DNA of 64,000 nucleotides from Fictibacillus enclensis (lineage in GTDB: Bacteria; Bacillota; Bacilli; Bacillales; Fictibacillaceae). Shown piece by piece: positions 34,325-51,726 of the stretch (positions are counted from its first letter, which is position 1; each line of letters begins with the position of its first letter). Below the pieces are notes generated by a model that searched no databases, had not been told where the DNA came from, and saw nothing but the letters and a program-made list of their open reading frames with translations. Made by a program: the position numbers and the translations under genes. The DNA lies in NCBI RefSeq assembly GCF_001457035.1, contig NZ_KQ758619.1:372001-436000 (forward strand), written 5' to 3'.

Positions 34325-35113
34325 GTGTCGGAATTACTTATTGTCGATAATGATAAACAATGCCGAAGAGAAGTTTGTGCAATCATTCAGGAAAGTAAAT
34401 ACAGCTTTTTATCCATTTATGAATCCAGTACGGCCCATCGAGGGATGCTGTTGCTGAAACAAAGCAAGCCGAGCGCACTCATGATTGATATTTCCTTGCC
34501 AGATACCGATGGCATAGCGTTTGGCAAAATAGCTCTTCAGTTGTATCCGGACCTTCCGATTATCGTGATGACCCAATTAAAGATGTTTGAACTCGTTCAA
34601 TCGTCCATCAATGCCGGTTTTTTAGGTTACTTATTGAAACCGCTTTCTAAAAATGAACTGATTGAAACGTTAGACAGGGTGTTGATTCCTGTTCTGAGCA
34701 AAAGTATAAACCAGGTTATGAAATCAAATGAAGAGCCCTTTACTGCAGATCTGAAAAATCCGATCGGCAGCGCCATCCAATACATGCAAATCTATTACAG
34801 CGAACCCCTCACATTAAAAGGTGTTGCAGACAAGGTATACCTGAGCCCTTCTTATTTCAGCAAACTGTTTAAAGAGGAAACAGGAATGACGTTTGTTGAA
34901 TATCTGTCGTTTGTCAGAGTGCAAAAAGCCAAATCCCTGCTGAGAATGTCAACACTGCCCATTGAAGTGATTGCCAACAATGCCGGTTTTGCGAATTCGG
35001 GATATTTTGCCACTACCTTTAAAAAGCTTACTGGAATAACACCGAGCGATTACCGTGAGCAATTTCATTTAGAGGCTGAGCAGGGACTAACGATATCAGC
35101 TGGAGGTGTGTAG
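34325..35113 (+). CDS. Response regulator with AraC-type output domain
   Basis: 262 residues. Receiver domain with acidic pocket DND (8-10), phospho-acceptor Asp55 in LMIDISLPDTDG, Thr in VMTQLK and Lys in LLKPLSKNE; then an AraC/XylS helix-turn-helix domain (about 150-250: LTLKGVADKVYLSPSYFSKL, IEVIANNAGFANSGYFATTF, GITPSDYRE). Such regulators (YesN type) normally have a histidine kinase beside them; none is here. The GTG start follows GAGGGGGGG. It is the first gene of the catabolic cluster and ends one base before the XdhC gene starts, so it is probably the cluster's activator. Confidence 0.88.
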   Translation: MSELLIVDNDKQCRREVCAIIQESKYSFLSIYESSTAHRGMLLLKQSKPSALMIDISLPDTDGIAFGKIALQLYPDLPIIVMTQLKMFELVQSSINAGFLGYLLKPLSKNELIETLDRVLIPVLSKSINQVMKSNEEPFTADLKNPIGSAIQYMQIYYSEPLTLKGVADKVYLSPSYFSKLFKEETGMTFVEYLSFVRVQKAKSLLRMSTLPIEVIANNAGFANSGYFATTFKKLTGITPSDYREQFHLEAEQGLTISAGGV

Positions 35114-36187
35114 ATGCTCCCGATTTATCTTGAAATGAAACGCTGTATCCAAAACGGTCTCCGGGGAGTTTTGGGGACAATTATCCGTACGGAAGGCTCT
35201 ACCTATCAAAAGTCAGGGGCCAAATGCTTTTGGAGCGAAGATGGAACGTTAACCGGATTATTAAGCGGGGGGTGTGTTGAGGGAGACTTCATGGAACACG
35301 CAAAAGAGGTGTTGAAGTCGGCATCCTGTAAAACGATAAGCTATGATTTCCGAGGTGGCGGTGACGATTTATGGGGCCTTGGCCTCGGATGCAACGGTTC
35401 CATTGATATTTTCCTGGAGCCCTTTGATTCACTGGGTGACCCTGAAAAGGCAGCCCGTAGCATGGAGATCTGTCAAACGGCACTTGCCCATGAAGTCAGC
35501 ATCGCCACTATTGTAGAAGCACCTGACCCTGTGTTGATTGGTGAAAAATGGGTATGTGAACAGGTTCCTTTTCATCAATCCAGGGCAGGGGTATATTCCA
35601 TCCCTTACGGGGAGAAAGAGGCCCTTGTATTTTCAGAAACCCTCACGCCTCCTCCACAACTGGTCATTTTTGGTGCAGGACCGGATGCAGTGCCTCTCAT
35701 TAAGGGAGCAAAGCAATTGAACTGGCAAGTGACTGTCATCGATCATCGTCCTGCTTTTGTGAACCAACAACATTTTCCGGAGGCCGATCATCTCGTTTGT
35801 GTTTCAAAAGGAGAATGGCCGGACCTTCAGATAGGCAGCTATTCGTTTGTGGTCATTATGACCCATCATTTTGAACAGGATGCTCTTTTTCTGAAGCAGT
35901 CACTGAAAACAGCGGCTCCATATATTGGGGTGCTTGGTCCGAACAAACGGACGTACCAGCTGTTGGATCAGATGAATTCCGGGCTTACCCAGGAGCAACT
36001 TTCTCGTCTCCACAGTCCTATTGGCTTGGATATCGGCTCAAAAACACCGGAAGAAATTGCGCTCAGTATTTTGGCGGAAATCACCATGATCTACCGAGAC
36101 AAGGGAAGCGGAAATCCTCTTCATGTGATGAAGGAAACGAGCTTCACGAAATACATGGAAAAGAAAGTGGGTGAACTGGCATTGTGA
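35114..36187 (+). CDS. XdhC/CoxI family molybdenum-enzyme maturation factor
   Basis: 357 residues. N-terminal XdhC_CoxI domain (LGTIIRTEGSTYQKSGAKC, LLSGGCVEGDF, GLGLGCNGSIDIFLEP) and a C-terminal Rossmann domain (VIFGAGPDAVPLIKGAKQLN, then VLGPNKRT). XdhC binds molybdenum cofactor, promotes its sulfuration and hands it to xanthine-oxidase-family enzymes. The ATG starts directly behind the stop of the regulator; the stop overlaps the next gene (GTGA). It serves the large subunit encoded at 36794. Confidence 0.92.
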   Translation: MLPIYLEMKRCIQNGLRGVLGTIIRTEGSTYQKSGAKCFWSEDGTLTGLLSGGCVEGDFMEHAKEVLKSASCKTISYDFRGGGDDLWGLGLGCNGSIDIFLEPFDSLGDPEKAARSMEICQTALAHEVSIATIVEAPDPVLIGEKWVCEQVPFHQSRAGVYSIPYGEKEALVFSETLTPPPQLVIFGAGPDAVPLIKGAKQLNWQVTVIDHRPAFVNQQHFPEADHLVCVSKGEWPDLQIGSYSFVVIMTHHFEQDALFLKQSLKTAAPYIGVLGPNKRTYQLLDQMNSGLTQEQLSRLHSPIGLDIGSKTPEEIALSILAEITMIYRDKGSGNPLHVMKETSFTKYMEKKVGELAL

Positions 36188-36792
36188 CTCCCCAAAAAAA
36201 CACATGGGCCATCATTTTGGCAGCCGGGCAGTCAAAACGGATGGGAACGCCAAAAATGATGCTGCGCCACAAGGGAAAAACACTTATCCATCACGTAATA
36301 GATGCGGCTGTAAATTCTAAAGCAGACGGTGTAATCATTGTGATTAACCCGGAAGTAGACGGTTTGCTTGCAGAGGCTTCTGTTCCGGGGGTCAGCAAGG
36401 TTTTCTTGAATGATCAGTCGGACAGCGGATTGTCGATGTCTATGAAATCAGGCCTTTACGTGTTGCCGTCAGAAGCAGAAGCCGCCATTTTTCTGCTGGG
36501 GGACCAGCCCCTTGTCACCACCAGAGAGATTGATTTACTTTTGGAGGAGTTTCAGGGGAACCAGGCTTATTCCATATATCAATCGTCCTATCGGGGAAAG
36601 AAGGGACACCCTGTCTTGTTTCAACGGAGTATGTTCGACCGGCTGCTTGATGTCAAGGGCGACAAAGGGGGCCGCGAGGTGATCAGGCAATTTTCCGGAG
36701 AGACCCAAACCGTTGAAATGGGAAGAAGCCACCCTTTTGATATTGATACCAAGGACGATTACAGAAGGCTATTAAGAAAGGAGGTCTCCTAA
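36184..36792 (+). CDS. MobA-like molybdenum cofactor nucleotidyltransferase
   Basis: 202 residues, NTP-transferase fold. ILAAGQSKRMGTPKMMLRHK is the nucleotide-binding signature and LLGDQPLV holds the metal-binding Asp. This is the MocA/PucB group, which attaches CMP to the cofactor for xanthine-oxidase-type enzymes. The GTG start overlaps the XdhC stop codon. A gene pair XdhC plus MobA-like beside the three subunits is the standard kit for a Mo hydroxylase. Confidence 0.9.
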   Translation: MTPQKNTWAIILAAGQSKRMGTPKMMLRHKGKTLIHHVIDAAVNSKADGVIIVINPEVDGLLAEASVPGVSKVFLNDQSDSGLSMSMKSGLYVLPSEAEAAIFLLGDQPLVTTREIDLLLEEFQGNQAYSIYQSSYRGKKGHPVLFQRSMFDRLLDVKGDKGGREVIRQFSGETQTVEMGRSHPFDIDTKDDYRRLLRKEVS

Positions 36793-36793
36793 A

Positions 36794-39223
36794 ATGGACA
36801 AAGTTATTGGCAAGGCCGTGACAAGAGTTGAGGACATGCGGCTGTTGACCGGACAAGGCAAATACATTGATGATATCGGAACCCCTGCCCAGACCTTTCA
36901 AGCGGCCATTTTAAGAAGCTCCAGCTCCCATGCCAATCTTGTTTCGATCGATACGGCTGAGGCTGAAAAGGTGCCAGGAGTAAAAGCAGTAATAACCGGT
37001 GAGCAGGTGAAGAAATACCTTGAGCCGTTCAGTGTAGGTGTCAGCGCTCCCGTTCATTATTATCCAATCGCCGTTGATAAAGTAAGGTATGTCGGAGAGC
37101 CTGTGGCGGTCGTGGTTGCAAAAAGCCGATATATCGCCGAGGATGCGATGGAACGGATCAAAGTGAAGTATGAAGCGCTCCCGCCGGTCGTTGATATTGA
37201 GGGTTCAATGGAGGAAGATGCCCCCATCCTTCATGAAAACGTTGGATCCAACATCGCCAATCACCGTACGTTTCATTACGGAAAAGTCGATCAGGCGTTT
37301 GAAGAAGCGGACAGGATCATTAAGCATAAATATCTTTTTCCGAAATATACCGCAACCCCTGTGGAGACATACGGAATTATCGCAAACTATGAATCAAGTG
37401 AAAATCAGTATACGGTGCACGCTAATTTTCACGGACCGTTTGTTATCCAGGCCATCATGGCTCAGGCACTGAAAATACCAAGCAATAAGCTGAGAATTAT
37501 TGTTCCAAAGGACATTGGGGGAAGCTATGGCATCAAAGCGGGAACTTTTCCCTACATGGTGCTCCTTTCGGTGGCCAGCCGGATTGCCGGATGCCCGGTA
37601 AAGTGGATTGAAGACCGCCAGGAGCACCTGTCGGCCAGCTCCAGCGGAACGGACAGGGTAACCTATATTGAAGCGGCGGTCAAGAACAACGGGAAGGTAA
37701 CCGGGCTGCGCATGAAGATGATCGATAATGTGGGTGCCTACATCAGGGCTCCCGAGCCCGCCTGCCTGTACCGTACACACGCAAATTCAACGGGTGCCTA
37801 TGATATTCCCAACCTGCATATTGATGCTTACGCCATTATGACGAATAAGCTGCCTACAGGGCTGATCAGAGGCTACGGTGGCCAGGAACTGTATTTTCCT
37901 CTGGAGAGGATCATGCAAAGGGTGGCGTTCGAGCTGAATCTGGATCCGGCGGATGTTATTCGTGAAAATCTCATTAAAAAAGAGCAGTTTCCTTACAAAA
38001 CGGCTTCAGGCGGCATGTATGACAGCGGGGACTATATGAAAGGATTCGAACTGGCACTGGAGACCGGAAAGTATGAGGAATTCCGCAAAAAACAAGAAAA
38101 AGCAAGAAAGGAAGGGAAAATCGTCGGTGTCGGTCTTGCCTGCATTGTCGAACCTTCGGGGTCTAACATGGGATATATCACGGTGGCACTGACTCCGGAA
38201 GAACGGGCAAAATCGCTGCCGAAATCGGGCTGTTCGGAAGCGGCTACCGTTTCGATGGATCCAATGGGAAGCGTGAACGTTAGGATCAGTACAACACCTT
38301 CCGGACAAGGGCATGAAACCGTTGCGGCACAAATCGTTTCTGAGGTATTGAGCATTCCGGCGGATAAAATCAAGGTGGTGGCAGAGCTGGACACGTCCAC
38401 AAGCGCCTGGTCCATTGCGTCAGGCAGCTATTCAAGCCGTTTTGCTTCATTGGGTTCAAGCGCAGTCTTTTATGCAGCGCACAAGGTGAAGGAAAAATTG
38501 ATGAAAATTGCTTCTCACCAGATGAAAGTGAGTGAGAGTGAACTGGAACTGCGAGACGGAGCTTTTTATGAAAAGAACGACCCGACAAAAAAATATGCAT
38601 TAAAAAGAGCGGCGGGATCTGCCCATTGGAATCCTCTTTCTCTTCCAGAAGGAATGGAACCTGGAATCTATGAAACATACTATTACTCTGTAAAAGCGGC
38701 TGAGCCGCCTGATGAAAATGATCTCATCAACTCATCTGTCACGTACGGATTTGTGGCTGATCTGGTAACAGTGGAGATTGACCCGGATACTGGGGAGGTT
38801 CGTATTCTCGATTATGTCACGATTCACGATGCCGGGAAACTACTGAATCCACTCATCGTCGATGGACAAATCTTTGGCGGGCTTGCCCATGGGCTGGGCG
38901 GGGCGCTCTATGAGGAGCTCGTATACGACAACAAAGGGCAGCTGCTAACCGGATCATTCATGGACTATTTGTGTCCGACTGCCCCGGAAATCCCGAACGT
39001 GACAATCAAGCATATCGAAACGCCATCTCCCATGACTCCGCTTGGTGCCAAGGGCCTTGGGGAAGGCAATACGATGAGTGCGCCAGTGGCTGTCGCCAAT
39101 GCGGTGAGTGATGCACTCACTCCATATCAAATAGAAATTGACACATTACCGCTGAGTCCCAATCGAATTTGGACGCTTCTGAATCAAGCGAAGCAAAACA
39201 AAAATAAAGAGGTGACCGTCTAA
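36794..39223 (+). CDS. Mo hydroxylase large subunit (CoxL/XdhA/HmfA-like)
   Basis: 809 residues, xanthine-oxidase family molybdopterin subunit. N-terminal a/b hammerhead (LLTGQGKYIDDI), cofactor contacts in IPKDIGGSYGIK-like and TPSGQGHETVAAQI segments, and the catalytic Glu in GAKGLGEGN (about residue 757). The active-site loop reads LIRGYGGQE around residue 360; true CO dehydrogenase form I has AYRCSFR and form II AYRGAGR, so this is not a CO dehydrogenase despite Cox-like neighbours. It would hydroxylate an aromatic or heterocyclic ring, with water as oxygen donor. In the furoate pathway the corresponding subunit of furoyl-CoA dehydrogenase is HmfA; that match is inference from context. 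Confidence 0.93.
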   Translation: MDKVIGKAVTRVEDMRLLTGQGKYIDDIGTPAQTFQAAILRSSSSHANLVSIDTAEAEKVPGVKAVITGEQVKKYLEPFSVGVSAPVHYYPIAVDKVRYVGEPVAVVVAKSRYIAEDAMERIKVKYEALPPVVDIEGSMEEDAPILHENVGSNIANHRTFHYGKVDQAFEEADRIIKHKYLFPKYTATPVETYGIIANYESSENQYTVHANFHGPFVIQAIMAQALKIPSNKLRIIVPKDIGGSYGIKAGTFPYMVLLSVASRIAGCPVKWIEDRQEHLSASSSGTDRVTYIEAAVKNNGKVTGLRMKMIDNVGAYIRAPEPACLYRTHANSTGAYDIPNLHIDAYAIMTNKLPTGLIRGYGGQELYFPLERIMQRVAFELNLDPADVIRENLIKKEQFPYKTASGGMYDSGDYMKGFELALETGKYEEFRKKQEKARKEGKIVGVGLACIVEPSGSNMGYITVALTPEERAKSLPKSGCSEAATVSMDPMGSVNVRISTTPSGQGHETVAAQIVSEVLSIPADKIKVVAELDTSTSAWSIASGSYSSRFASLGSSAVFYAAHKVKEKLMKIASHQMKVSESELELRDGAFYEKNDPTKKYALKRAAGSAHWNPLSLPEGMEPGIYETYYYSVKAAEPPDENDLINSSVTYGFVADLVTVEIDPDTGEVRILDYVTIHDAGKLLNPLIVDGQIFGGLAHGLGGALYEELVYDNKGQLLTGSFMDYLCPTAPEIPNVTIKHIETPSPMTPLGAKGLGEGNTMSAPVAVANAVSDALTPYQIEIDTLPLSPNRIWTLLNQAKQNKNKEVTV

Positions 39224-39678
39224 TGGAAGGAAAAGGAAATATGGTATTGGAGGCAGGAGTAAACAGAGCGTATGAAGTGCTCCTTGATCCTGCTGTGCTT
39301 GAAAAATGCATTATGGGCTGCAAAAAACTTGTGTTGGTGGATGACAACAAGTATGAAGCAGAGCTGTCCATTGGAATTGCGGCTATCAAAGGAAACTACT
39401 CTTCAACGATTGAGATCCTCGACCTGGAAGAGCCCCGTCATTACAAATTGGCGGTCAAGGGTGAAGGAGCTCCGGGAACGGTAGAAGCCGTTGGAATCGT
39501 AGACTTGACGCCGGATGGCGAAAGCTCGACTCTTCTAAACTACTCCTATGAAGCAGAAGTAGGCGGAAAGGTAGCGATGGTGGGCCAGCGAATGCTCGGA
39601 GGGGTAGCAAAACTGGTGATTCAGGACTTTTTTAAGAAACTGGGCAAGGAACTAAAACGAATGGAACAGAGCGCCTAA
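39223..39678 (+). CDS. CoxG family (SRPBCC) protein
   Basis: 151 residues, START-like fold: LDPAVLEKCIMGCKKL, SIGIAAIKGNYSS, YKLAVKGEGAPGTVEAVG and LNYSYEAEVGGKVAMVGQRM are the usual CoxG stretches. CoxG proteins accompany CoxLMS-type enzymes and are thought to help place or recruit them at the membrane. The start codon overlaps the stop of the large subunit (TAATGG), so translation is coupled. Confidence 0.9.
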   Translation: MEGKGNMVLEAGVNRAYEVLLDPAVLEKCIMGCKKLVLVDDNKYEAELSIGIAAIKGNYSSTIEILDLEEPRHYKLAVKGEGAPGTVEAVGIVDLTPDGESSTLLNYSYEAEVGGKVAMVGQRMLGGVAKLVIQDFFKKLGKELKRMEQSA

Positions 39679-39698
39679 AGAAAGGGGCAGAGCACATA

Positions 39699-40583
39699 AT
39701 GAAACCGGCCAAGTTCGATTACTACCGTCCTAAGGATCTTCCGGAAGCGCTGTCTCTTCTCGAATCAAGCGGTTTTGACGGCAAGATTATTGCAGGGGGA
39801 CAGAGCCTGGTGCCGATTATGAACATGAGGCTGGCAACACCTGAATGTTTAATTGACATTAACGGTCTTCAGGATCTGAATTTTATCGAGAGCGATGATC
39901 GTGTGTTGAAGATCGGGACGATGACCCGGCAAAATACGGTGGAGACTTCACAACTCATCAAAGATCAATGCGGTCTCGTTACCGAAGCGGTTGCACATAT
40001 CGGCCATCTTCAAACGAGAAACCGTGGAACGATCGGAGGAAGCATTGTCCATGCCGACCCCAGTGCCGAGCTTCCTCTTGTAATGATGGCGCTCAATGGC
40101 ACGCTTCATATCTCTTCAGAAGACGAAACAAGAAGCGTGAAGGCGGAGGATTTTTTTCTCACATTTCTAACGACAGATATGATGCCCAACGAAATGCTGA
40201 CTGAAGTTCATTTGCCTATTTGGAAGGGACGGGTCGGGTCTTCCTTTCAGGAAGTGGCGAGGCGTCATGGGGATTTTGCTCTTGTAGCCGCCGCTTGTCA
40301 GCTTGAGCTTGATGCTCATGACCGAATTTCAGATATCCGGCTGGCTCTTGGCGGGGTCGAGGCGATTCCCCTTTTAATTAGTGATGCGAAAGAACTTCTT
40401 GCAGGAGAAAGGCTTACGGATGCAGCGCTGCAAAAAGTGGCCGATGTGGTGGCGGGCAGTGTGGAGCCTGAATCGGATCTGCACGCTTCTGCGGCCTACC
40501 GGACACAATTGGCGAAGGTATTGACGACGAGAGTAGTGCACCAAGCATACGAGAGAGCAAAGGGGTCAGCAGTATGTCCTTAA
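39699..40583 (+). CDS. Mo hydroxylase FAD subunit (CoxM-like)
   Basis: 294 residues. FAD-binding motifs IIAGGQSLVPIMNMRLATPE (about 28-47) and TRNRGTIGGSIVHADPSAEL (about 105-124), then the CO-dehydrogenase flavoprotein C-terminal domain. It passes electrons from the iron-sulfur subunit to the acceptor. There is no insert with extra Cys residues, so no additional 4Fe-4S cluster as in 4-hydroxybenzoyl-CoA reductase. The end overlaps the start of the next gene by ten bases. Confidence 0.93.
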   Translation: MKPAKFDYYRPKDLPEALSLLESSGFDGKIIAGGQSLVPIMNMRLATPECLIDINGLQDLNFIESDDRVLKIGTMTRQNTVETSQLIKDQCGLVTEAVAHIGHLQTRNRGTIGGSIVHADPSAELPLVMMALNGTLHISSEDETRSVKAEDFFLTFLTTDMMPNEMLTEVHLPIWKGRVGSSFQEVARRHGDFALVAAACQLELDAHDRISDIRLALGGVEAIPLLISDAKELLAGERLTDAALQKVADVVAGSVEPESDLHASAAYRTQLAKVLTTRVVHQAYERAKGSAVCP

Positions 40584-41065
40584 CCGAGATAAATGTGACG
40601 ATCAACGGCAAAGCATACTCCGAATGGGTGGAACCGCGAATGCTGCTAAGTGACTTCATTCGTGAAACATGCGGATTGACAGGCACCCATGTCGGCTGTG
40701 AGCATGGCGTGTGCGGCGCGTGTACCATCAGCATGGACGGTGCAGCTGTCCGGTCCTGCCTCATTTTTGCCGTGCAGGCCGATAACAGGGAAATAAAGAC
40801 GGTCGAAGGACTGGCCTGCAACGGAGAAATGACAGCGCTTCAAAAGAACTTTGTGGAATGCCATGGTCTGCAGTGCGGTTTTTGCACCGCCGGAATCTTG
40901 ATGTCCATCACCGATTTCCTTGAAAAGAACCCACAGCCATCCACAAAAGAAATCAAAGAGACCCTGTCAGGGCATCTGTGCCGCTGCACAGGCTATGACG
41001 GAATTGTAAAGGCTGTACAGAAAACGGTTCAGGATAACCAAAAAGAAGTCTTGCAAAGGAGTTGA
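40574..41065 (+). CDS. Mo hydroxylase [2Fe-2S] subunit (CoxS-like)
   Basis: 163 residues with two cluster domains: the plant-ferredoxin type GCEHGVCGACTISMDG with a further Cys at RSCL, and the helical C-terminal type CGFCTAGILMS and HLCRCTGYDGIV. All eight Cys ligands are present. It carries electrons from the Mo centre to FAD. The order large, CoxG, FAD, FeS differs from the common CoxMSL order. Confidence 0.94.
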   Translation: MSLTEINVTINGKAYSEWVEPRMLLSDFIRETCGLTGTHVGCEHGVCGACTISMDGAAVRSCLIFAVQADNREIKTVEGLACNGEMTALQKNFVECHGLQCGFCTAGILMSITDFLEKNPQPSTKEIKETLSGHLCRCTGYDGIVKAVQKTVQDNQKEVLQRS

Positions 41066-41069
41066 ACCC

Positions 41070-42623: not shown

Positions 42624-42651
42624 TTGCTGATCAATGAGAGGAGAAATGAAA

Positions 42652-43440
42652 ATGACAACTGCAACTCAATATGACCATATCCGTGTGGAAAAAAACGAGG
42701 CGGCACAAACAGCCACAATTATCTTTGACAGGCCAGAAAAAATGAATTATATCAGCATGCTGGCGAGAGCTCAGTTTTCCAAGATCTTTGATGAATTAAA
42801 TGCGGATGAAGATGTGCGCGTAATTATCGTAAAGGGGGAAGGCGATAAATGCTTTAGTGCGGGAGGAAGCATTCCGCAGTTCATGGAAACCCACCCTGAA
42901 GAACTGTCGCGATTAAGAGTTAATGTGGCTGCACCCGAACGCTCTCCAAAACCGGTTATTGCCCAGCTTCAGGGATATACGTTCGGTGTAGGGTTTGAAA
43001 TTGCGATGGCTTGCGACTTCCGGATCGCCGCCGATGACACACTGCTTGGATTGCCGGAAATGAACCTTGGAATGATTCCGGGAAGCGGCGGAACCCAGCG
43101 TGTAGCACGTGCGGTTGGACTGACCAGGGCGAAGGATATGATTATGAGGGCAAGAAGAATTCCTGCGGATGAAGCCTATCAATGGGGATTGCTGACAAAG
43201 GTTGTTAGCAAGGCCGAGCTTGAAAATGAAGTGAACAGTTTGGCTGAAGAGCTTGTCCGTTTTTCTCCTTTGGCACAGCGGGTTTGCAAGGAAGTCTTAA
43301 ATGCCGCCGAAGAAGGCCCTTTGAGTACAGGCTTGGAGATTGAGGGAAGAGCTTACGGAATGCTGAGATGCACGGAGGATTTTAAAGAAGGTGTCGATTC
43401 TTTTGTGGAAAAAAGAAAACCTAAATTTACTGGGAAGTAA
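42652..43440 (+). CDS. Enoyl-CoA hydratase/isomerase family protein (HmfE-like candidate)
   Basis: About 262 residues, crotonase fold. Oxyanion hole FSAGGSIPQF; both acidic catalytic positions of hydratases appear kept, Glu in GVGFEIAMACDFRIA and Glu in LGLPEMNLGMIPGSGGTQR. I take the ATG at 42652 (MTTATQYDHI), ten bases behind AGGAG, over ATGs at 42634 and 42646. In furoate degradation a crotonase-like protein follows the Mo hydroxylase and acts on hydroxyfuroyl-CoA or its lactone; the same role is proposed here. Confidence 0.9.
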   Translation: MTTATQYDHIRVEKNEAAQTATIIFDRPEKMNYISMLARAQFSKIFDELNADEDVRVIIVKGEGDKCFSAGGSIPQFMETHPEELSRLRVNVAAPERSPKPVIAQLQGYTFGVGFEIAMACDFRIAADDTLLGLPEMNLGMIPGSGGTQRVARAVGLTRAKDMIMRARRIPADEAYQWGLLTKVVSKAELENEVNSLAEELVRFSPLAQRVCKEVLNAAEEGPLSTGLEIEGRAYGMLRCTEDFKEGVDSFVEKRKPKFTGK

Positions 43441-43571
43441 CGGATGAGAGTAATCCCGCGATTCTGGCGGGGTTACTCTGTACCCGTTTTTTGCATAATT
43501 AAAAAACTGAATATTCTGTTTATAACTCATCCAAGCTAAGTCACATAAAAACTTTAGTATTGGAGGAAATA

Positions 43572-44912
43572 ATGATGTCAAATGCTGTATCTACCGGTGT
43601 AGTAAGAGAAACAGAACCGAAAAAAACGGAAAACAAGCAGATCGTTTCGGCTACCGCCGCTTCTCTACTGGGCTGGTCGTTTGATTTATATGACCTTTTC
43701 ATCCTGCTATATGTGACACCCACCATAGGCAAATTATTTTTTCCAACGACCAATCCTACGCTGTCTCTTGCTGCGGTGTATGCCTCTTTCGCCGTTACCC
43801 TGCTTATGCGGCCGCTGGGATCCGCCATATTTGGTTCCTATGCGGACAAGCACGGAAGAAAAAATGCGATGACCGTAGCCATTATAGGAGTGGGTTTAAG
43901 CACCGCTGTTTTCGGGCTGCTCCCCACGGTTCCTCAAATCGGGTTTTTTGCTGCCCTTCTTTTTTTACTGCTTCGCCTGGTTCAGGGTGTTTTTGTTGGA
44001 GGGGTGGTTGCTTCCACCCATACGATCGGTACCGAATCAGCGCCTCCTAAATGGAGGGGACTCATGTCGGGGTTGATCGGCGGAGGCGGTGCAGGATTGG
44101 GTGCACTGTTTGCTTCCATCGCATTTATGGTGGTCTCTGCCATTTTCCCTGGTGAAGCATTTGAGGGCTGGGGATGGAGAGTCATGTTCTTTACGGGGAT
44201 TTTGGGATCTGTTGCTGGTCTTTTTGTTTTCCGGACACTGGAAGAATCCCCACTATGGACGGAAATGAAAAAGAAAAAGAATGAGAATCAGAATGTGGTG
44301 GAACAAAAACCCGTCAAAGCCCTATTTACGACATATTCAAAAATTTTGCTGGTTAACTTGATGATCGTAATCGGGGGAGGATCCGGTTATTATCTAACCG
44401 CCGGATTTATTCCAACGTTCCTCAATGTCGTCAATAAGGTATCTTCTGCAACTCTGTCAGGCGTTCTTATCGCCGCAAGTATAGCGACGATCATATCGGC
44501 CATGATTGCCGGCCATCTGAGTGAAGTGTATGGAAGGAAAAAGGTTTTCATGGTTGTCGGGTTGTTAAACGTGATCGGCCTGCCGTATTTTTATCTCTCG
44601 CTGGCCGATGCAGGCTCAGTTACTGCCATCTACTTTTACGTGGTATGTCTTGTGTTTTTGGGAAATGCGGCCTACGCTCCTGTCCTGATATTCTTAAACG
44701 AGCGGTTCCCGACCTCCATCCGATCGACCGGCACCGGCCTGTCCTGGAACATGGGTTTTGCCATTGGAGGCATGATGCCTACCTTTGTCACCCTAGCAAG
44801 CGGAACGGTTGATAATATTCCACACACTCTAATGTATTTTGCCATTGTCATCTATCTTGTCTACATTGTTGGAAGCGTTATCATACCAGAGACCAAAGGA
44901 AGGCTGCAATAA
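43572..44912 (+). CDS. MFS transporter, metabolite:H+ symporter type
   Basis: About 446 residues, 12 helices, with the MFS signature SYADKHGRKNAMT between helices 2 and 3 and a matching HLSEVYGRKK in the second half. The start GWSFDLYDLFILLYVTPTIG with its Asp is typical of aromatic-acid and sialic-acid carriers. GGAGG lies eight bases before the ATG at 43572. Likely importer of the acid or aldehyde handled by the cluster. Confidence 0.88.
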   Translation: MMSNAVSTGVVRETEPKKTENKQIVSATAASLLGWSFDLYDLFILLYVTPTIGKLFFPTTNPTLSLAAVYASFAVTLLMRPLGSAIFGSYADKHGRKNAMTVAIIGVGLSTAVFGLLPTVPQIGFFAALLFLLLRLVQGVFVGGVVASTHTIGTESAPPKWRGLMSGLIGGGGAGLGALFASIAFMVVSAIFPGEAFEGWGWRVMFFTGILGSVAGLFVFRTLEESPLWTEMKKKKNENQNVVEQKPVKALFTTYSKILLVNLMIVIGGGSGYYLTAGFIPTFLNVVNKVSSATLSGVLIAASIATIISAMIAGHLSEVYGRKKVFMVVGLLNVIGLPYFYLSLADAGSVTAIYFYVVCLVFLGNAAYAPVLIFLNERFPTSIRSTGTGLSWNMGFAIGGMMPTFVTLASGTVDNIPHTLMYFAIVIYLVYIVGSVIIPETKGRLQ

Positions 44913-44946
44913 TCATCCAATCTAAAACGGAAAGGAGTATGATGGG

Positions 44947-46431
44947 ATGTCCACTTTCGTTACTCAGAAAGTACCAACCTACTATAATTTTGCCGGTGGT
45001 GAATGGACAGAATCCACGTCCAATGAGCTGATTGAGTCGTACAATCCTGCGACTGGAGATCTGTTTAGCTACTCGCAAAAATCAAATGTAAGAGATGTTA
45101 CAGCTGCCATTGAGTCTGTACGGCACGCCTTTCTGACCAGTGACTGGGCGGTAAATCCAAAGCGCCGCTATGAAGCCTTGCTGGCTCTCGCTGAAAATAT
45201 AACAAAGAACCTGGAGCGTCTTTCCCGGATTCTCACGATTGACCAGGGGAAGACCATACGAGAGTCAAGAGGGGAACTGGCGGGCTGCATCGACACTCTT
45301 AAATATTTTGCCGGGGCCGCTAGAACCGTGTTTGGGCGTTCCATGCAGCTGGAACCTGCCAACTTCGGGGTGATTGTTAAAGAACCCATCGGGGTGGTGG
45401 GCATCATCTCTCCGTGGAACTGGCCCGCGTTGCTGATGGTCCGTGAGCTTGCCCCGGCGCTTGCTGCCGGTAATGGGGTCATCGTCAAGCCCGCGAGCCT
45501 GACGCCCTCGATTTCTGCTGAAATTTTCAAGCTGATCGCCGAGATCCCTCATTTTCCTAAGGGAATCGTGAGTCTCATAACAGGTCCCGGAAGAGAAATT
45601 GGTGCGGCGATGGCGGCCAGTGAAAAGATCGATATGATCAGTTTTACCGGAGATACAGCGACCGGAAAGTCGATCATGGAAACAGGGGCCAAAAATATCA
45701 AAAAGATCGCGCTCGAACTTGGAGGCAAATCCCCCAATATTGTTTTTGAGGATGCCAATCTGGACAAGGCCATTCCGATCATCGGCCGTTCCATTTTTAT
45801 TTCCGCCGGCCAAATCTGCATGGCCGGGTCCAGAGTAATAATTGAGGAATCCATTAAGGACACAGTGGTTCAGCGGTTGAAAGAATATGCCGAACAGCTC
45901 AAGGTGGATAACGGCCTTTTGGAAACATCCGATATGGGGCCGCTTGTGTCGCAAAGCCAATTGGACATAGTCCAAGGCTATTGCGATCTGGGGCGTCAGG
46001 AAGGGACGATTGTAACTGGCGGTGAGCGCTTGACCGGGGGATCGCACGACCTGGGCTATTACTTCCAACCGACCATTATTGACGGGCTTGCGAGTGACAG
46101 CAGGGTGATGCAGGAAGAAATTTTCGGGCCTGTACTCGCTGTTCAGACGTTTTCGAGCGAAGAAGAAGCGCTTCATCTGGCAAACGACAGTGACTTTGGG
46201 CTTTCTGCGGGAGTATGGACATCCAACCTTAACCGCGCCATGCGATTGTCAAAAGGGATTAAGGCTGGAACCGTATGGATCAATACGTATAATAAAAACT
46301 TCCCTGAAGCAGAGTTTGGCGGCTACAAGCAAAGCGGTCTGGGCCGGACACGGGGCGTGGATGGTTTGATGGAATACTGTGAAACGAAGCATGTCCATAT
46401 TGAAGTCGAAGAACCGGGGGAGGAAGTATGA
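44947..46431 (+). CDS. NAD(P)-dependent aldehyde dehydrogenase
   Basis: 494 residues, class 3-fold ALDH. Asn in SPWNWPALL, cofactor site SFTGDTATG, general-base Glu in ELGGKSPN and catalytic Cys in AGQICMAGSR (about residue 295). It would oxidise an aldehyde such as furfural or hydroxymethylfurfural, or an aryl aldehyde, to the acid that the CoA ligase activates. AAGGAG precedes the ATG; the stop overlaps the alcohol dehydrogenase start by four bases. Confidence 0.93.
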   Translation: MSTFVTQKVPTYYNFAGGEWTESTSNELIESYNPATGDLFSYSQKSNVRDVTAAIESVRHAFLTSDWAVNPKRRYEALLALAENITKNLERLSRILTIDQGKTIRESRGELAGCIDTLKYFAGAARTVFGRSMQLEPANFGVIVKEPIGVVGIISPWNWPALLMVRELAPALAAGNGVIVKPASLTPSISAEIFKLIAEIPHFPKGIVSLITGPGREIGAAMAASEKIDMISFTGDTATGKSIMETGAKNIKKIALELGGKSPNIVFEDANLDKAIPIIGRSIFISAGQICMAGSRVIIEESIKDTVVQRLKEYAEQLKVDNGLLETSDMGPLVSQSQLDIVQGYCDLGRQEGTIVTGGERLTGGSHDLGYYFQPTIIDGLASDSRVMQEEIFGPVLAVQTFSSEEEALHLANDSDFGLSAGVWTSNLNRAMRLSKGIKAGTVWINTYNKNFPEAEFGGYKQSGLGRTRGVDGLMEYCETKHVHIEVEEPGEEV

Positions 46432-47609
46432 TGCAGAGTAGTTCCATTACTCAACAGTCGGAGCAAAGCTACTCCTTTCATCTGCCGACCCGAATTGAAT
46501 TCGGGTTTGGCAAAGCCTCCATACTTGGCGGACACCTAGCTGCAATGGGAGTGAAACAGGCGTTTATTGTAAGTGACCAGGGAGTGGTGTCCGCAGGATT
46601 ATTAAGTAACATTAATGCCTCTCTTCAAGAAGCTGGCATCTCATCTGAACTGTATCTCGAGGTGGAACCGGATCCCAGTTTTAAAACGATTGACAGAGGA
46701 GCGGATTGTTTTCGCAAAAGTCACTGCGATGTCCTGATTGCCGTTGGAGGAGGCAGCGTGATGGATACGGCCAAAGGAATAAGAATCGTAGCTCAACACG
46801 GTCAAAGTATTGGGGATTACGCAGGAGTCGAACGGATCAAAAGTGGTTCGGTCATTCCGCTTGTCGCGGTACCAACCACCTCCGGGACGGGCAGTGAGGT
46901 TACGATTTTCGGAGTTTACTCGGACTGGGAAAACCAGGTAAAAGTAACCGTAAACAGCCGATATATGGCACCGACATTGGCTATTGTGGATCCTGAGCTG
47001 ACATTGGGCCTGCCGAAAAAAATAACCGCATCCACCGGAATTGATGCATTGGCCCATGGAATTGAAACCTACTTTTCCCGCCGGGCCAGCCCGGCAACCG
47101 ACGCACTGGCGACAGAGGCAATTGCAACGATAGGATCTTCTTTAAGAGCAGCGGTGGAGAATGGTCATGACAAGGCGGCCAGGACCCGGATGTCACATGG
47201 AAGCTTGCTCGCAGGCATGGCATTCAATAACGGATTGCTTGGACTGGCGCACGCCATTGGCAGCGCGCTTTCAGGACATTGTCACGTTCCTCATGGCATA
47301 GCGATCGGGTTGTTGCTTCCGCATGTCATCGAGTTCAATGCGGGAGAGAATGTTCAAAAGGCAGCAAACATTGCGAACCTGCTGGGAATCCATAATGGAT
47401 CATCTTCATCCCTAGCGGCGCAGGCAGCAGAAGCCGTAGCTCAACTGGTTTCTGATATTGGTCTGCCGACCCGGTTAAGAGACGTTGATGTATCTGAACA
47501 TCAGCTTGGTGTTATCGCTTTGGATTCTTTCAAAAGCGGAATGATGAAGTGGAACCCGAAACAGCCGTCCGAGGCTGAGGTGCTGGAACTGTTGAAGAAA
47601 ATATATTAA
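46428..47609 (+). CDS. Iron-containing alcohol dehydrogenase
   Basis: 393 residues, group III. Cofactor motif IAVGGGSVMDTAKGIR (about 105-120), PTTSGTGSEVT, and the metal-binding Asp/His set in ITASTGIDALAHGIE, GLAHAIGSAL and VPHGIAIGLLLPH. Paired and overlapping with the aldehyde dehydrogenase gene, it completes an alcohol-aldehyde-acid route. Confidence 0.93.
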   Translation: MMQSSSITQQSEQSYSFHLPTRIEFGFGKASILGGHLAAMGVKQAFIVSDQGVVSAGLLSNINASLQEAGISSELYLEVEPDPSFKTIDRGADCFRKSHCDVLIAVGGGSVMDTAKGIRIVAQHGQSIGDYAGVERIKSGSVIPLVAVPTTSGTGSEVTIFGVYSDWENQVKVTVNSRYMAPTLAIVDPELTLGLPKKITASTGIDALAHGIETYFSRRASPATDALATEAIATIGSSLRAAVENGHDKAARTRMSHGSLLAGMAFNNGLLGLAHAIGSALSGHCHVPHGIAIGLLLPHVIEFNAGENVQKAANIANLLGIHNGSSSSLAAQAAEAVAQLVSDIGLPTRLRDVDVSEHQLGVIALDSFKSGMMKWNPKQPSEAEVLELLKKIY

Positions 47610-47630
47610 TCCACTGGGGAGGTATGTTCG

Positions 47631-48461
47631 ATGGCTGAAGAACTGGTATTTGGTTTGGATGAAAGTACGGATGAGGTGGCCTGGAAGCTTTATCGAAAAG
47701 CGATTCGGTTTGGCACGTGGGATCCTGCTGAAATTGACCTATCACGAGACAGGGAGGACTATGAAAGACTGGACAAGGATTTGCAAGATTACCTCATTCA
47801 CTTTTGTACCGGTTTTCTCGACGCGGAAGAAAATGTAGCTTTGAAATTCTGTCCATGGATCATGCTTGGGGCTTCCACTCAGCAGCAGGCCTTTCTTAGC
47901 ACGCAGCTCGTGGAAGAATTCAAGCATACGGAATTTTTTCTTCGCTATTTTCAGGAAGTACTCGGCATCGACAGGACTGATGGTGTGCAAAATGCGGTTC
48001 AGCAAAAGCTGGACGAGCGGGGCAAAAGGATGCTGAACGCTCTGGAAGGCAGTGAAGAGCAGAAGGAAGAGGCTCTGGTGGAGGGGCTCGCTCATTACCA
48101 GGGAATCATTGAAGGCGTACAGGCCATGGCAGGTTACGACGTTTTCGAAGCCGTGTATGGCAGTAAAGGGATTTTGCCGGGTTTAAAGGAAGGATTCAAA
48201 CGGATCAAGGAAGATGAAGGGCGTCATGTCGGATTTGGACTCCGCATGCTGAAGGTGCTCGCGAAACAGGAAAAGCATGCAGCCAGCATTCGGAGAGTGT
48301 ATGAAGAATATCGTCCGCTCATTGCCATCCGGTATGATCAGCCGGTTATCGTCAACGGCCGCCAAATTCCTGTTCCCCCAGAAGTAAACGGTCGAGAGCG
48401 CGTGATGAAACTTTTTGAGCGCCGCCTGAAGGATATTTTTGGAGTCGTTTCGGTGAGCTGA
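47631..48461 (+). CDS. R2-like ligand-binding oxidase (R2lox) family protein
   Basis: 276 residues, ferritin-like di-metal carboxylate protein of the ribonucleotide-reductase R2 superfamily. Metal ligands by pattern: Glu67 (DAEENVA), Glu96 and His99 (EEFKHTE), Glu161 (IIEG), Glu196 and His199 (DEGRHVGF). The two residues that form the Val-Tyr ether cross-link in Mn/Fe R2lox proteins are in place: Val69 two residues after the first Glu, and Tyr156 five before Glu161, as in Geobacillus R2lox. LYRKAIRFGTWDPAEIDLS resembles the R2lox N terminus. Metabolic substrates of R2lox are unknown. Its position inside a catabolic operon, 20 bases behind the alcohol dehydrogenase, suggests an oxidative step there. 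Confidence 0.87.
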   Translation: MAEELVFGLDESTDEVAWKLYRKAIRFGTWDPAEIDLSRDREDYERLDKDLQDYLIHFCTGFLDAEENVALKFCPWIMLGASTQQQAFLSTQLVEEFKHTEFFLRYFQEVLGIDRTDGVQNAVQQKLDERGKRMLNALEGSEEQKEEALVEGLAHYQGIIEGVQAMAGYDVFEAVYGSKGILPGLKEGFKRIKEDEGRHVGFGLRMLKVLAKQEKHAASIRRVYEEYRPLIAIRYDQPVIVNGRQIPVPPEVNGRERVMKLFERRLKDIFGVVSVS

Positions 48462-48480
48462 ACAAAGGAGGAAATCCATT

Positions 48481-49914
48481 TTGTTGACAGCCAGTACTAT
48501 TATTATGGGTATAGTGATTTTGTATGTTTTGGCAACCTCATGCCTTGGCGTATATACGAAAAGGTTTTCGAAAAGCTCGGATAAGTACATGACAGGGGGA
48601 AAAGCATTTGGCCCGTTTGTGATCGGCGTCTTGATGATGTCTGAATTTATTGGCACCGGCTCAACAATTGGTACAGCTCAAACCGCTTTTTCCGAAGGGA
48701 TTTCCGCTTCTTGGAATCTAATCACCCTTGCACTTGCCTTTGCTCTATTTGCCTATACGCTCGCCAAGAAGTTTCATGAACGGGGAGAATATACGATATC
48801 AGGGGCCATTTCCAAAACATATGGAAATGGTGCGAGAACCATCACGTCCATTGTCATGATATATGCGCTGGGAGTGGTCAATGTTTCCATGTATGCCGGC
48901 GGTGCAGCTACGTTATCTGCCATATTGCATATTCCCCATTCTATGGCAGCCATTCTCGTTGGAGTAGTGACAGTCGTTTATGTGTCACTGGGCGGAATGT
49001 TCGCTGTAGCCTATACCAATTTGATTCATGCCTTTTTTAAATACGTGGGATTAATTCTGGCTGTCTCCTTTTCACTGGCAGCAGTTGGGGGTTTTTCTGG
49101 ATTATCAATAGAGATGAAGCCATCCATGCTTAATTGGACAGGAATTTCATGGCCGACCATTATTGCATGGACCATTGCTAACATCGGCTCCATTTTCTCT
49201 ACCCAATATATCATCCAGGCCGTCAGTTCAACAACCGATGATGCCAACGCTAAAAAAGCGAGCATTTATGCAGGCCTTATGGTTATTCCTGTTGGAATAA
49301 TGGCCGCTCTGATCGGAATGGCAGCCTCTGTATTGTTTCCTGATATTGCTTCCTCTGAGGCTTTTCCGATGACAACCACTCTTATGAATCCTTTCTTGGC
49401 CGGGCTGGTCATCGCCGGCTTGATAGCTGCTGTCTTTGGCACGGTAGCCGCTTCTACGATTGGAGCCGCTGCCCTTCTGTTAAAAGATTTTTATACACCG
49501 TTTTTTAATAGAGAAGGATCTGATTCTAAATCATTACGATTTTCTAGGATAGCAACTATTGTTATGGGGCTGTTGCCCATTCCGTTTGCCATTTTTGCTC
49601 CGGAAATCCTGAATACAATATTCTTTGCCAGAGCTCTTCGCACGACCATTGCAGTGATTGTCATCCTTATGTTTTATTTTCCCCGCTTCAGCAGCGGTTT
49701 TGGAGCTACAATGGGCATGGTGTCTGCGGTTGTTACAACCACAATCTGGTTCCTATCCGGAAACCCTCTTCATATTGATAACATTTACATTGCAGCGATC
49801 ACACCTTTAATTGTAATGAGCATAGATCACTTATTCCGGAAAAACAAACGGGTACACCAAAATGAACAATCTATCGACATGAATGACAGTTATCAAGTGA
49901 AGAAAATAGAATGA
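48481..49914 (+). CDS. Sodium:solute symporter (SSS) family transporter
   Basis: 477 residues with about 13 helices. SSS hallmarks: KYMTGGKAFGPFVIGV and SEFIGTGSTIGTAQTAFSEG in the first helices, GGMFAVAYTNLIHAFFKYVG in the middle. Probably a Na+-driven carboxylate or aromatic-acid importer. The start is TTG behind AAAGGAGGAAATCC. Its gene is followed within 15 bases by the UbiD decarboxylase gene, so its substrate may be what UbiD handles (inference). Confidence 0.9.
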   Translation: MLTASTIIMGIVILYVLATSCLGVYTKRFSKSSDKYMTGGKAFGPFVIGVLMMSEFIGTGSTIGTAQTAFSEGISASWNLITLALAFALFAYTLAKKFHERGEYTISGAISKTYGNGARTITSIVMIYALGVVNVSMYAGGAATLSAILHIPHSMAAILVGVVTVVYVSLGGMFAVAYTNLIHAFFKYVGLILAVSFSLAAVGGFSGLSIEMKPSMLNWTGISWPTIIAWTIANIGSIFSTQYIIQAVSSTTDDANAKKASIYAGLMVIPVGIMAALIGMAASVLFPDIASSEAFPMTTTLMNPFLAGLVIAGLIAAVFGTVAASTIGAAALLLKDFYTPFFNREGSDSKSLRFSRIATIVMGLLPIPFAIFAPEILNTIFFARALRTTIAVIVILMFYFPRFSSGFGATMGMVSAVVTTTIWFLSGNPLHIDNIYIAAITPLIVMSIDHLFRKNKRVHQNEQSIDMNDSYQVKKIE

Positions 49915-49928
49915 AAGGAGAGAGTTGT

Positions 49929-51332
49929 ATGAAAGCTAGAACTTTTCGTACATGGCTGGATCATCTTCAATCAAAGGGACGGTTGGCCGTAATCAATAAA
50001 AAGGTGAGTCCTGATTTTGAGATTGCGGCAGTGGCCAAAAAGCTTGATGGCCAAAAAGCAGCCTACTTCTCAAATGTAGATGGCTATAAAGTTCCTCTGG
50101 TTTCAGGAATATGCTCGAGCCGTCAGGATTTTGCAGATGCCTTGGAAACCGATGAAAAAGGAATCATTCCTAAATTCTCTAAGGCGGTTTCAATTCCAAA
50201 GCCGTGCAGATTAATAGAAAAGGAGGATGCCCCAGTAAAGGAAAATATTATAACGGAAAACATCGATATACTCAAAACCTTTCCTATTCCTATACATCAT
50301 GAAATGGATTCAGGTCATTACATCTCGGCAGCACTGTTCATTACACGCGATCCGGACACGCGCAAGCAAAATGTATCGATTCATCGCCTGCAAATTTCAG
50401 GTAAGGACAAGCTTGGTGTATTATTGCTTCCGAGGCACACTCATCATCTATATAAACAGGCAGAGGAGCAGGGGAAACCATTGGAATGCGCCATCGTGAT
50501 TGGTGTCGATCCGCTGACACTGCTAGCCTCGCAGGCGAGTACGCCATTTGGCGTGGATGAGCTGGAAATCGCGAGCGCATTGCGTTCTGAACCGCTGGAA
50601 ACCGTACGATGTGAAACGGTGGACATCGATGTGCCTGCCCGCGCCGAAATTGTAATAGAGGGAAAAATCCTTCCTCATATACGGGAACCTGAGGGGCCGT
50701 TTGGAGAATTCCCTAAATACTATGGGCCGCGGAGCGACAAAGAAATCGTGCAGGTCACTGCCATTTCCCATCGAGATAATCCCATCTTTTATACTATTGT
50801 CCCAGCAGGTTATGAACATCTTTTATTGGGGGGGATTCCAAGAGAAGCAAGCCTCCTCGAGAGCATACGACAGACAGTCCCTTCTGTAGCGGCTGTCCAT
50901 ATGAGTCCGGGAGGCACGTGTCGATATCATGCCATCGTTTCGATAAAAAAACGAAATGAAGGTGAAGCCAAGAATGCCATTCTCGCTGCCTTCGCCAACA
51001 GCTTTGACATTAAACATGTCGTAGTTGCTGATGAGGACGTTGATATTTTTAACATGGAGGAAGTCGAATGGGCTATCGCCACCCGCTTCCAGGCCAGCAA
51101 AGATATGGTTGTGATTCACGATGCCCAAGGTTCAAAGCTCGATCCATCTACCGATAACGGCTTAGGTTCAAAAACCGGTTTTGACTGCACCATCCCATTA
51201 AATAGTGAACCTATGAGATATAAGAGAATCACCATTCCGGGATATGATGAGCTAAATCTACAAGACTATCTTTCTCACGACGCGTCTGAATCAAAGAAAG
51301 AGAGTTTTGAAACAGACAAAGTCCTAACATGA
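49929..51332 (+). CDS. UbiD family prenyl-FMN decarboxylase (HmfF-like candidate)
   Basis: About 468 residues from the ATG at 49929 (MKARTFRTWL), behind AAGGAGAG. The UbiD active-site segment REPEGPFGEFPKYYG (about 245-260) holds the two catalytic Glu residues; VSIHRLQISGKDKLGVLL, YEHLLLGGIPRE and RFQASKDMVVIHDAQGSKLD are other family stretches. UbiD enzymes reversibly decarboxylate aromatic or unsaturated acids with prenylated FMN. In hmf clusters HmfF decarboxylates furan-2,5-dicarboxylate to furoate. The prFMN synthase (UbiX) is not in this window. Confidence 0.9.
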   Translation: MKARTFRTWLDHLQSKGRLAVINKKVSPDFEIAAVAKKLDGQKAAYFSNVDGYKVPLVSGICSSRQDFADALETDEKGIIPKFSKAVSIPKPCRLIEKEDAPVKENIITENIDILKTFPIPIHHEMDSGHYISAALFITRDPDTRKQNVSIHRLQISGKDKLGVLLLPRHTHHLYKQAEEQGKPLECAIVIGVDPLTLLASQASTPFGVDELEIASALRSEPLETVRCETVDIDVPARAEIVIEGKILPHIREPEGPFGEFPKYYGPRSDKEIVQVTAISHRDNPIFYTIVPAGYEHLLLGGIPREASLLESIRQTVPSVAAVHMSPGGTCRYHAIVSIKKRNEGEAKNAILAAFANSFDIKHVVVADEDVDIFNMEEVEWAIATRFQASKDMVVIHDAQGSKLDPSTDNGLGSKTGFDCTIPLNSEPMRYKRITIPGYDELNLQDYLSHDASESKKESFETDKVLT

Positions 51333-51334
51333 AG

Positions 51335-51709: not shown

Positions 51710-51726
51710 TAGCGGGGAGGATGTCC

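Follow-up and report, generated by a model that had tools for sequence, protein, structure and literature searches.

A furan catabolic (Hmf) gene cluster of Fictibacillus enclensis and an R2lox protein with a probable part in its upper branch

We analyzed a stretch of 64,000 nucleotides from the genome of Fictibacillus enclensis (GCF_001457035.1, 4.5 Mb in 10 contigs; NZ_KQ758619.1, positions 372,001 to 436,000), hereafter the window, and in particular a series of 15 genes at 34325–51332. Judged by its sequence, this series very likely encodes the Hmf pathway of furan degradation. The series as a whole is probably explained as a Bacillales version of the Hmf pathway with an R2lox protein devoted to its upper branch, every reaction and substrate being one that we infer. 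A Gram-positive Hmf cluster is not in itself new, as a plasmid of Geobacillus kaustophilus carries one; a search of the Creative Commons (CC)-licensed literature found no paper joining 5-hydroxymethylfurfural (HMF), G. kaustophilus and a decarboxylase.

Identity of the furan cluster

The proteins were compared with two proteobacterial clusters located on plasmids pENH92 of C. necator and pDSHI01 of D. shibae. HmfA to HmfE occur in the same Hmf order at 38–62% identity, and the UbiD protein of the window is 50% identical to the UbiD of both clusters. HmfA of the window is shorter than its proteobacterial counterpart by about 200 residues, and the separate CoxG protein of the window aligns to residues 848–989 of the C. 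necator and 819–960 of the D. shibae HmfA (39–40% identity). Since the additional part of HmfA matches this separate protein, HmfA and CoxG of the window together equal the proteobacterial HmfA. In a tree of 22 HmfA-type sequences, all 17 Hmf rows including that of the window (8 from Bacilli, 8 from Proteobacteria and one from an actinobacterium) fell into one group (support 100/99), and the five other Mo-hydroxylases of Bacilli included for contrast were placed outside it. Assignments of the large subunit as CO dehydrogenase, xanthine dehydrogenase or hydroxybenzoyl-CoA reductase were discarded based on scores far under the curated cut-offs and on the tree.

The UbiD protein is 56.6% identical over 445 amino acids to PtHmfF (6h6v) from Pelotomaculum thermopropionicum, which scored 582 bits in a search of solved structures, with the next entry outside HmfF at 229 bits. 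Identity to the other UbiD proteins of the same genome is lower (32–42% to three, 23% to the fourth), and in a tree of 34 UbiD sequences, where P. umsongensis is represented by strain DSM 16611 (locus L152), the window protein was found with the HmfF rows, apart from these four. In PtHmfF, we take Arg304 and Arg331 to be furan-binding residues. His303, Arg311 and Arg338 are kept in the window UbiD, and His303 was matched to the histidine at position 296 of the 6h6v chain. This histidine (H297 in the numbering of PMC7976604) is described in passages of that paper as key to furan specificity.

The Bacilli HmfF rows do not form one group in the UbiD tree: those of four genomes (G072, G155, G467 and G572) join a set of Bacilli UbiD proteins with 55–57% identity to HmfF (99/96). 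The loci of this set (L121, L122, L123, L229 and L230) show other gene contexts near UbiX, with no R2lox of the clade described below and no aldehyde dehydrogenase (ALDH) or iron-type alcohol dehydrogenase (FeADH) close to those of the cluster, the ALDH of L122 reaching 31%; unscanned neighbours in L229 and L230 resemble parts of TRAP transporters by eye. This set probably serves another ring acid. In a further locus from the same genus as the window (L074 of G025, about 7400–8800), the match to the UbiD gene is split into two parts lying in different frames, owing to a frameshift or a sequencing fault.

Two accessory, non-defining members of the pathway, UbiX (HmfG) and the FAD oxidase HmfH, are absent from the 15 genes; UbiX-like genes lie beside three other UbiD genes elsewhere in the genome. 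As reported in passages of PMC6604932, hmfFGH is much less conserved than hmfABCDE. According to parts of PMC12064950, P. umsongensis GO16, another strain than DSM 16611, grows on furoate without hmfF, with no growth on HMF or 2,5-furandicarboxylic acid (FDCA).

Following the standard Hmf scheme (outlined in passages of PMC6604932, PMC6678421 and PMC12064950), HmfD would activate 2-furoate to furoyl-CoA, the Mo enzyme HmfABC with CoxG would hydroxylate this thioester, and HmfE would help to bring the product to 2-oxoglutarate. In the upper branch, FeADH and ALDH would oxidise 5-substituted furans to 2,5-furandicarboxylate, which HmfF, the UbiD protein, would decarboxylate to 2-furoate.

A first-pass annotation made from the letters of the window had already read the series as a furan catabolic cluster. 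Gene order, identities and the HmfA and UbiD trees support this reading, the remaining Hmf proteins having been compared by pairwise identity; for the ligase HmfD, its 47–48% identity to the proteobacterial enzymes agrees with the Hmf assignment, the grouping being judged by identity alone. The same annotation had named a grouping of the large subunit, the ligase or UbiD with a different known pathway as a refuting condition; none of these comparisons gave such a grouping. It also spoke of a Gram-positive furan pathway with extra members and listed R2lox as one gene of the series. The pathway was borne out, and the connection of R2lox with it proved to be what is most informative.

The R2lox protein and its association with HmfF

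The R2lox protein passes the curated model of its family (NF006200; 240 bits, cut-off 194). For GkR2loxI, passages of PMC6060897 give the metal ligands E69, E102, H105, E167, E202 and H205 and an ether cross-link between Val72 and Tyr162. All six ligands are present in the window protein (E66, E96, H99, E161, E196 and H199), and its V69 and Y156 are a pair that appears able to form the ether cross-link; ligands and pair alike are invariant in 28/28 aligned R2lox sequences, 20 of them from the clade defined below, and in 26/26 clade rows. The 34 solved folds closest to its AlphaFold2 model (pLDDT 91.6) are all R2lox proteins (TM-score 0.70–0.80 by query length). Identity as a ribonucleotide reductase subunit was rejected on this basis, the first such protein appearing at rank 35.

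As the clade we define the R2lox proteins that share 50% identity or more with that of the window. In a tree of 69 R2lox sequences, its 35 rows were grouped together on a long branch (100/99); they comprise 34 different sequences, as the window protein and the copy from its own genome are identical. Eight R2lox proteins of Bacilli outside the clade are 27–32% identical to the window protein. Five positions distinguish the clade: Gln92, Gln164, His155, Phe97 and Asn68 occur in 20/20 aligned clade rows, and the same positions are taken by Phe, Leu, Thr or Val, Ala and Ala, respectively, in 7/7 other R2lox proteins. The R2lox of genome G478 (36–37%; L061/L100) was kept out of both the clade and the seven-row comparison. 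Judged by sequence position only, about one turn separates Gln92 and Gln164 from metal ligands, which suggests a site more polar than the fatty-acid channel described for other R2lox proteins.

According to the tree, the clade includes GKP26 of plasmid pHTA426. Passages of PMC10867098 name this protein GkR2loxII, report 30% identity to GkR2loxI and leave open whether it hydroxylates aromatic hydrocarbons. The portions of the CC-licensed literature covered contain no function assigned to GkR2loxII, and no CC-licensed paper joining R2lox and furan was found, nor did those listed for R2-like ligand-binding oxidases or pHTA426 show such a link.

The distribution of this clade was analyzed in two partly overlapping samples of the order (397 genomes) and the class (398 genomes), with the window's genome and G072 in both. 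HmfF was counted from 60% identity upwards and R2lox from 50%, both cut-offs being chosen after gaps were seen. In the order sample, clade R2lox was found in 9/397 genomes and HmfF in the same 9. In the class sample, the 18/398 genomes with R2lox all lie within the 21/398 with HmfF, and the remaining 377 contained none. The corresponding Fisher p values (1.6e-18 and 2e-28) do not allow for relatedness and overstate the case. Altogether, the clade spans 13 families by the labels of the tool used. Each of the 27 R2lox genomes apart from that of the window also encodes HmfF, as does pHTA426, and the two genes are no more than 10 kb apart in 25 of these 28 loci. In the remaining three, HmfF was located about 17 kb away (G572), in a different part of the contig (G635) or on another contig than R2lox, whose own contig measures 4.9 kb (G467). 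In G572, FeADH and ALDH lie on the opposite strand, one gene away from R2lox. HmfE, ALDH, FeADH, R2lox and UbiD stand together in 14 of the 27 loci from other genomes and on pHTA426; because this clustering is conserved, a chance grouping of these genes was excluded.

The search for HmfA covered two selections of 7 and 24 genomes, together with 338 genomes from the class sample. HmfA was detected in 22/27 R2lox genomes other than the window's, and across the 28 HmfF genomes of both samples R2lox accompanied HmfF in 20/20 with HmfA and 5/8 without it. Three genomes with an HmfABCDE cluster and no HmfF (G035, G553 and G585) have no clade R2lox (0/3), and the clusters fetched from them contain no homologues of UbiD, FeADH or R2lox. 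R2lox is thus tied primarily to HmfF, ALDH and FeADH, by which furandicarboxylate would be formed and consumed, and secondarily to HmfA, the groups of 3 and 8 genomes behind this ranking being small.

Genomes with HmfF and no HmfA offered a separate observation. Their loci (L218 of G523, L219 of G504, L220 of G607, L084 of G448, L089 of G592, L097 of G521 and L099 of G501) combine UbiD, ALDH, FeADH and a major facilitator superfamily (MFS) carrier with varying subsets of larB, larE, larC, ferredoxin, NadC-like and MoCF-like genes. NCBIfam models for larB, larE and larC are over cut-off for the copies in L218 and L219, and the Lar_N domain of LarA was found in three of five HmfA-less genomes examined and not in the other two. 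L218, L220 and L084 share a 475-residue protein with no Pfam match (83–89% alike; pLDDT 35), and L218, L219 and L089 carry dmpE/F/G-type genes for converting 2-oxopent-4-enoate into pyruvate and acetyl-CoA. Part of this gene complement is found in 3/3 loci with neither R2lox nor HmfA and in 4/5 with R2lox and no HmfA, the fifth meeting a contig end. Because adding two electrons to 2-furoate gives the formula of 2-oxopent-4-enoate, these loci may represent a second lower pathway with a nickel-pincer-dependent reductive ring opening of furoate. No paper on nickel-pincer nucleotide and furan was found in the CC-licensed literature.

Proposed role of R2lox and alternatives

It is likely that R2lox works in the upper branch. 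With a Mn/Fe or Fe/Fe site and O2, it would hydroxylate a methyl substituent of the furan (or oxidise a hydroxymethyl substituent) and feed the two dehydrogenases, so that methyl, hydroxymethyl, formyl and carboxyl groups would follow one another until HmfF removes the carboxyl. For GkR2loxI, passages of PMC10867098 propose a route from alkane to alcohol, aldehyde and acid with alcohol and aldehyde dehydrogenases; methyl hydroxylation of furans is proposed here by carrying this three-step logic over and, as an analogy, is the reaction that we favour, with a probability somewhat below even. In 12 control loci with other R2lox proteins, chosen from larger match lists, ALDH homologues were present in 10, FeADH homologues in 8 and HmfF in none. 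More tentatively, the GkR2loxII-type clade as such could be the furan-substituent hydroxylase of Gram-positive bacteria, converting methylfurans to hydroxymethylfurans, with the ring methyl lost by oxidation and subsequent decarboxylation by HmfF; its functional counterpart in some Proteobacteria would then be a di-iron hydroxylase of the membrane to which it is not related.

This last comparison is based on the best 80 of 585 HmfF loci, 67 from non-Bacillota (22 of them shorter than 21 kb) and 13 from Bacillota. Seven of the 67, as well as two plasmids, encode an FA_hydroxylase-like histidine-box protein of the sterol desaturase type (L129, L131, L132, L143, L144, L167, L168, L015 and L016; 51–86% alike, with one identical pair), which represents another O2-using dinuclear-iron type. 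Of three scanned, that of pENH92 alone was over the Pfam cut-off. In P. baetica, the gene lies between those of a short-chain dehydrogenase/reductase (SDR) and a PsfA-like ALDH, so its product would be extra to two dehydrogenases. We regard these proteins as a parallel to R2lox, not as proof.

Several observations weigh against an R2lox dedicated to the upper branch. In G635, R2lox and HmfF are far apart on one contig (2.50 and 0.37 Mb). Three of the 21 HmfF genomes of the class sample (G504, G523 and G607) have no R2lox, and since all of them also lack HmfA, R2lox presence is tied to HmfA as well. If the UbiD proteins of G603 and G040 (56–57%) are counted as HmfF, the ratios become 9/10 and 18/22; nor is the HmfF cut-off a clade boundary, as G572, G467, G072 and G155 are counted although they group with the 55–57% set (99/96). 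FA_hydroxylase-like genes occur in a minority of the non-Bacillota loci among the best 80. No evident electron-transfer partner for a monooxygenase is found among the 15 genes. As far as passages of PMC10867098 describe it, the alkane loss ascribed to GkR2loxI rests on cell-free lysate of E. coli making the protein. In passages of PMC12064950, P. umsongensis turns HMF into FDCA by means of the alcohol dehydrogenase PsfG and the aldehyde dehydrogenase PsfA; because two dehydrogenases suffice there, R2lox would not be needed for HMF.

A related reading, which we consider unlikely, takes R2lox as an alternative oxidase that acts on HMF or 5-hydroxymethylfuroate, at the hydroxymethyl or the aldehyde group, replacing the FAD oxidase HmfH with no C–H hydroxylation. 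HmfH-like GMC oxidases occur in 18/67 non-Bacillota and 0/13 Bacillota loci, and R2lox in 7/13 of the latter, which would fit such a replacement; however, both types of dehydrogenase, for alcohols and for aldehydes, are already encoded in the cluster, and loci with FA_hydroxylase-like proteins also carry GMC (2/7) or, in P. baetica, SDR and a PsfA-like ALDH, so that no simple exchange for HmfH is apparent. UbiD enzymes require oxidative maturation of their prenylated FMN, and the tight co-occurrence of R2lox and HmfF would likewise be expected if R2lox matured HmfF, for example through an activating oxidation of the cofactor, and had no furan as its substrate. That this is its function is very improbable: the 67 non-Bacillota loci show no R2lox match within the loci themselves, many of which are cut by contig ends, HmfF genomes without R2lox retain open UbiD frames in 3/3 loci and UbiX in 2/3, and other R2lox genes adjoin the same two dehydrogenase types without UbiD.

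That R2lox is a passenger merely seated in the catabolic cluster, oxidising alkyl chains or lipids, draws on the fatty acid bound at the metal site of GkR2loxI, as described in passages of PMC6060897. Against it stand the separate clade with its long branch, Gln92 and Gln164 beside the ligands in 20/20 clade rows where Phe and Leu are seen in 7/7 others, and the way in which R2lox presence follows HmfF across 13 families; we consider such a passenger role improbable. The whole cluster could also handle another ring acid, such as pyrrole, thiophene or hydroxybenzoate, through CoA, given that the UbiD and crotonase families are broad and that Mo-hydroxylases act on many heteroaromatics. Yet HmfA and UbiD group with Hmf proteins, the 582 bits for 6h6v compare with 229 for the next entry, and His303 is kept, leaving this explanation with hardly any probability.

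An upper-branch function of R2lox would bear on a family whose metal site is well studied and for which few natural roles are assigned. In 2024, alkane hydroxylation was proposed for GkR2loxI and GkR2loxII was left open, according to passages of PMC10867098. The link to HmfF narrows this second clade to a handful of directly testable furan substrates, and its nearly constant R2lox makes the Gram-positive Hmf cluster a variant with a testable claim on an enzyme clade. Further hosts and enzymes for converting biomass furans to FDCA could become available.

Gene series, flanks and relation to known systems

All 15 genes are open frames on the forward strand (Table 1), as the first-pass annotation had proposed for this series. 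The family names it gave agree with the profile matches; its count of thirteen or more is corrected to 15. The distances from stop to next start are 0, −4, 1, −1, 20, −10, 4, 10, 119, 34, −4, 21, 19 and −4 bp. The coupled or near-zero spacing it described thus holds for 13/14 gaps (at most 34 bp) and not for the 119 bp between HmfE and the MFS gene, the only gap above 100 bp, which could be the seat of an internal promoter. In agreement with the same annotation, no ring-cleavage dioxygenase was found among the NCBIfam matches (best 25 per protein, 15 proteins) or the Pfam matches (nine scanned proteins), and no kinase gene is present among the 15. As a terminator, the hairpin behind the UbiD gene is weak evidence with position alone in its favour, because shuffling the sequence yields a similar number of such hairpins (19 sites versus a mean of 17.7 in shuffles).

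Table 1 Features of the window in and around the furan cluster
Feature	Position	Strand	Evidence
Patatin-like phospholipase	30996–31961	−	Weak likeness to CBASS phospholipase model, 78 of 200 bits, under cut-off
Nucleotidyltransferase	32386–33228	+	Weak likeness to aminoglycoside nucleotidyltransferase ANT(9), 29 of 340 bits, far under cut-off
Regulator, response-regulator receiver fused to AraC-type HTH	34325–35113	+	Pfam Response_reg, HTH_18; 52% to pHTA426 regulator
XdhC-like Mo-hydroxylase maturation factor	35114–36187	+	Pfam XdhC_C, XdhC_CoxI; NCBIfam NF045664 under cut-off
MocA-like molybdenum cofactor nucleotidyltransferase	36184–36792	+	TIGR03310, 167 bits (below cut-off of 186); NTP_transf_3
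HmfA, furoyl-CoA dehydrogenase molybdopterin subunit	36794–39223	+	49–50% to proteobacterial HmfA; tree 100/99
CoxG-like protein, separate equivalent of proteobacterial HmfA C-terminal part	39223–39678	+	Pfam COXG; 39–40% to that part
HmfB, FAD subunit	39699–40583	+	38–39% to proteobacterial HmfB; 53% to pHTA426
HmfC, 2Fe-2S subunit	40574–41065	+	53–62% to proteobacterial HmfC
HmfD, furoyl-CoA synthetase	41070–42623	+	47–48% to proteobacterial HmfD; 62% to pHTA426
HmfE, crotonase-fold enzyme	42634–43440	+	49–51% to proteobacterial HmfE; 71% to pHTA426
MFS carrier	43560–44912	+	58% to MFS gene after hmfE, C. necator pENH92
Aldehyde dehydrogenase (ALDH)	44947–46431	+	ALDH families; 78% to pHTA426
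Iron-type alcohol dehydrogenase (FeADH)	46428–47609	+	Fe-ADH families; 65% to pHTA426
R2lox, HmfF-linked clade (GkR2loxII type)	47631–48461	+	NF006200, 240 bits (cut-off 194); ligands, fold, tree
Sodium:solute symporter (SSS)	48481–49914	+	Pfam SSF
HmfF, UbiD-type 2,5-furandicarboxylate decarboxylase	49911–51332	+	6h6v best PDB match, 582 bits, 56.6%; tree
Terminator-like hairpin	51333–51360	+	Directly 3' of UbiD gene; 12 pairs and T run
XylF-type D-xylose ABC transporter binding protein, with the two frames after it	51625–55500	+	Binding protein directly after furan cluster and above its cut-off

By analogy with PsfA and PsfG, the models taken from passages of PMC12064950, we propose that ALDH oxidises 5-formylfuroate (and furfural) and FeADH 5-hydroxymethylfuroate. 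PsfG itself is probably an SDR, as is the product of the gene in the matching place of P. baetica. The MFS carrier is 56% identical to the MFS protein encoded after hmfF in three Pseudomonas loci, and SSS genes likewise lie near hmfF in Pseudomonas and Azospirillum loci (45–47% identity). In the flank, the XylF gene is followed by two unscanned frames that resemble an ABC ATPase and a permease by appearance.

Comparing our results to known systems, the cluster shares with the Hmf pathway of Cupriavidus basilensis HMF14 (hmfABCDE, hmfFGH) and P. umsongensis GO16 the HmfABCDE order, HmfF, alcohol and aldehyde oxidation, an MFS carrier and a regulator. It differs in that CoxG is separate from HmfA, FeADH replaces the FAD oxidase HmfH or PsfG of Pseudomonas, R2lox, XdhC and MocA lie inside the series and UbiX is not among its genes. 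The HmfABCDE order is also common to pENH92 and pDSHI01, where CoxG is fused to HmfA. Plasmid pHTA426 of G. kaustophilus HTA426 (L014) carries the same kinds of genes including R2lox (GKP26) at 41–78% identity, with the order from the regulator through XdhC, MocA, HmfA, CoxG, HmfB, HmfC and HmfD to HmfE in common; unlike the window, it has its upper genes in a different order, a second HmfD-like ligase and UbiX, and no SSS match. With PtHmfF, the window UbiD has in common the 56.6% identity over 445 amino acids and His303, Arg311 and Arg338, the comparison of residues being limited to these three. Finally, the window R2lox has the fold, the six ligands and the Val-Tyr pair of GkR2loxI (4hr0), the M. 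tuberculosis protein (3ee4) and SaR2loxII (7qbk), and is set apart from other R2lox proteins by its separate clade, its 27–32% identity to the eight from Bacilli, and Gln92, Gln164 and other residues next to the metal ligands.

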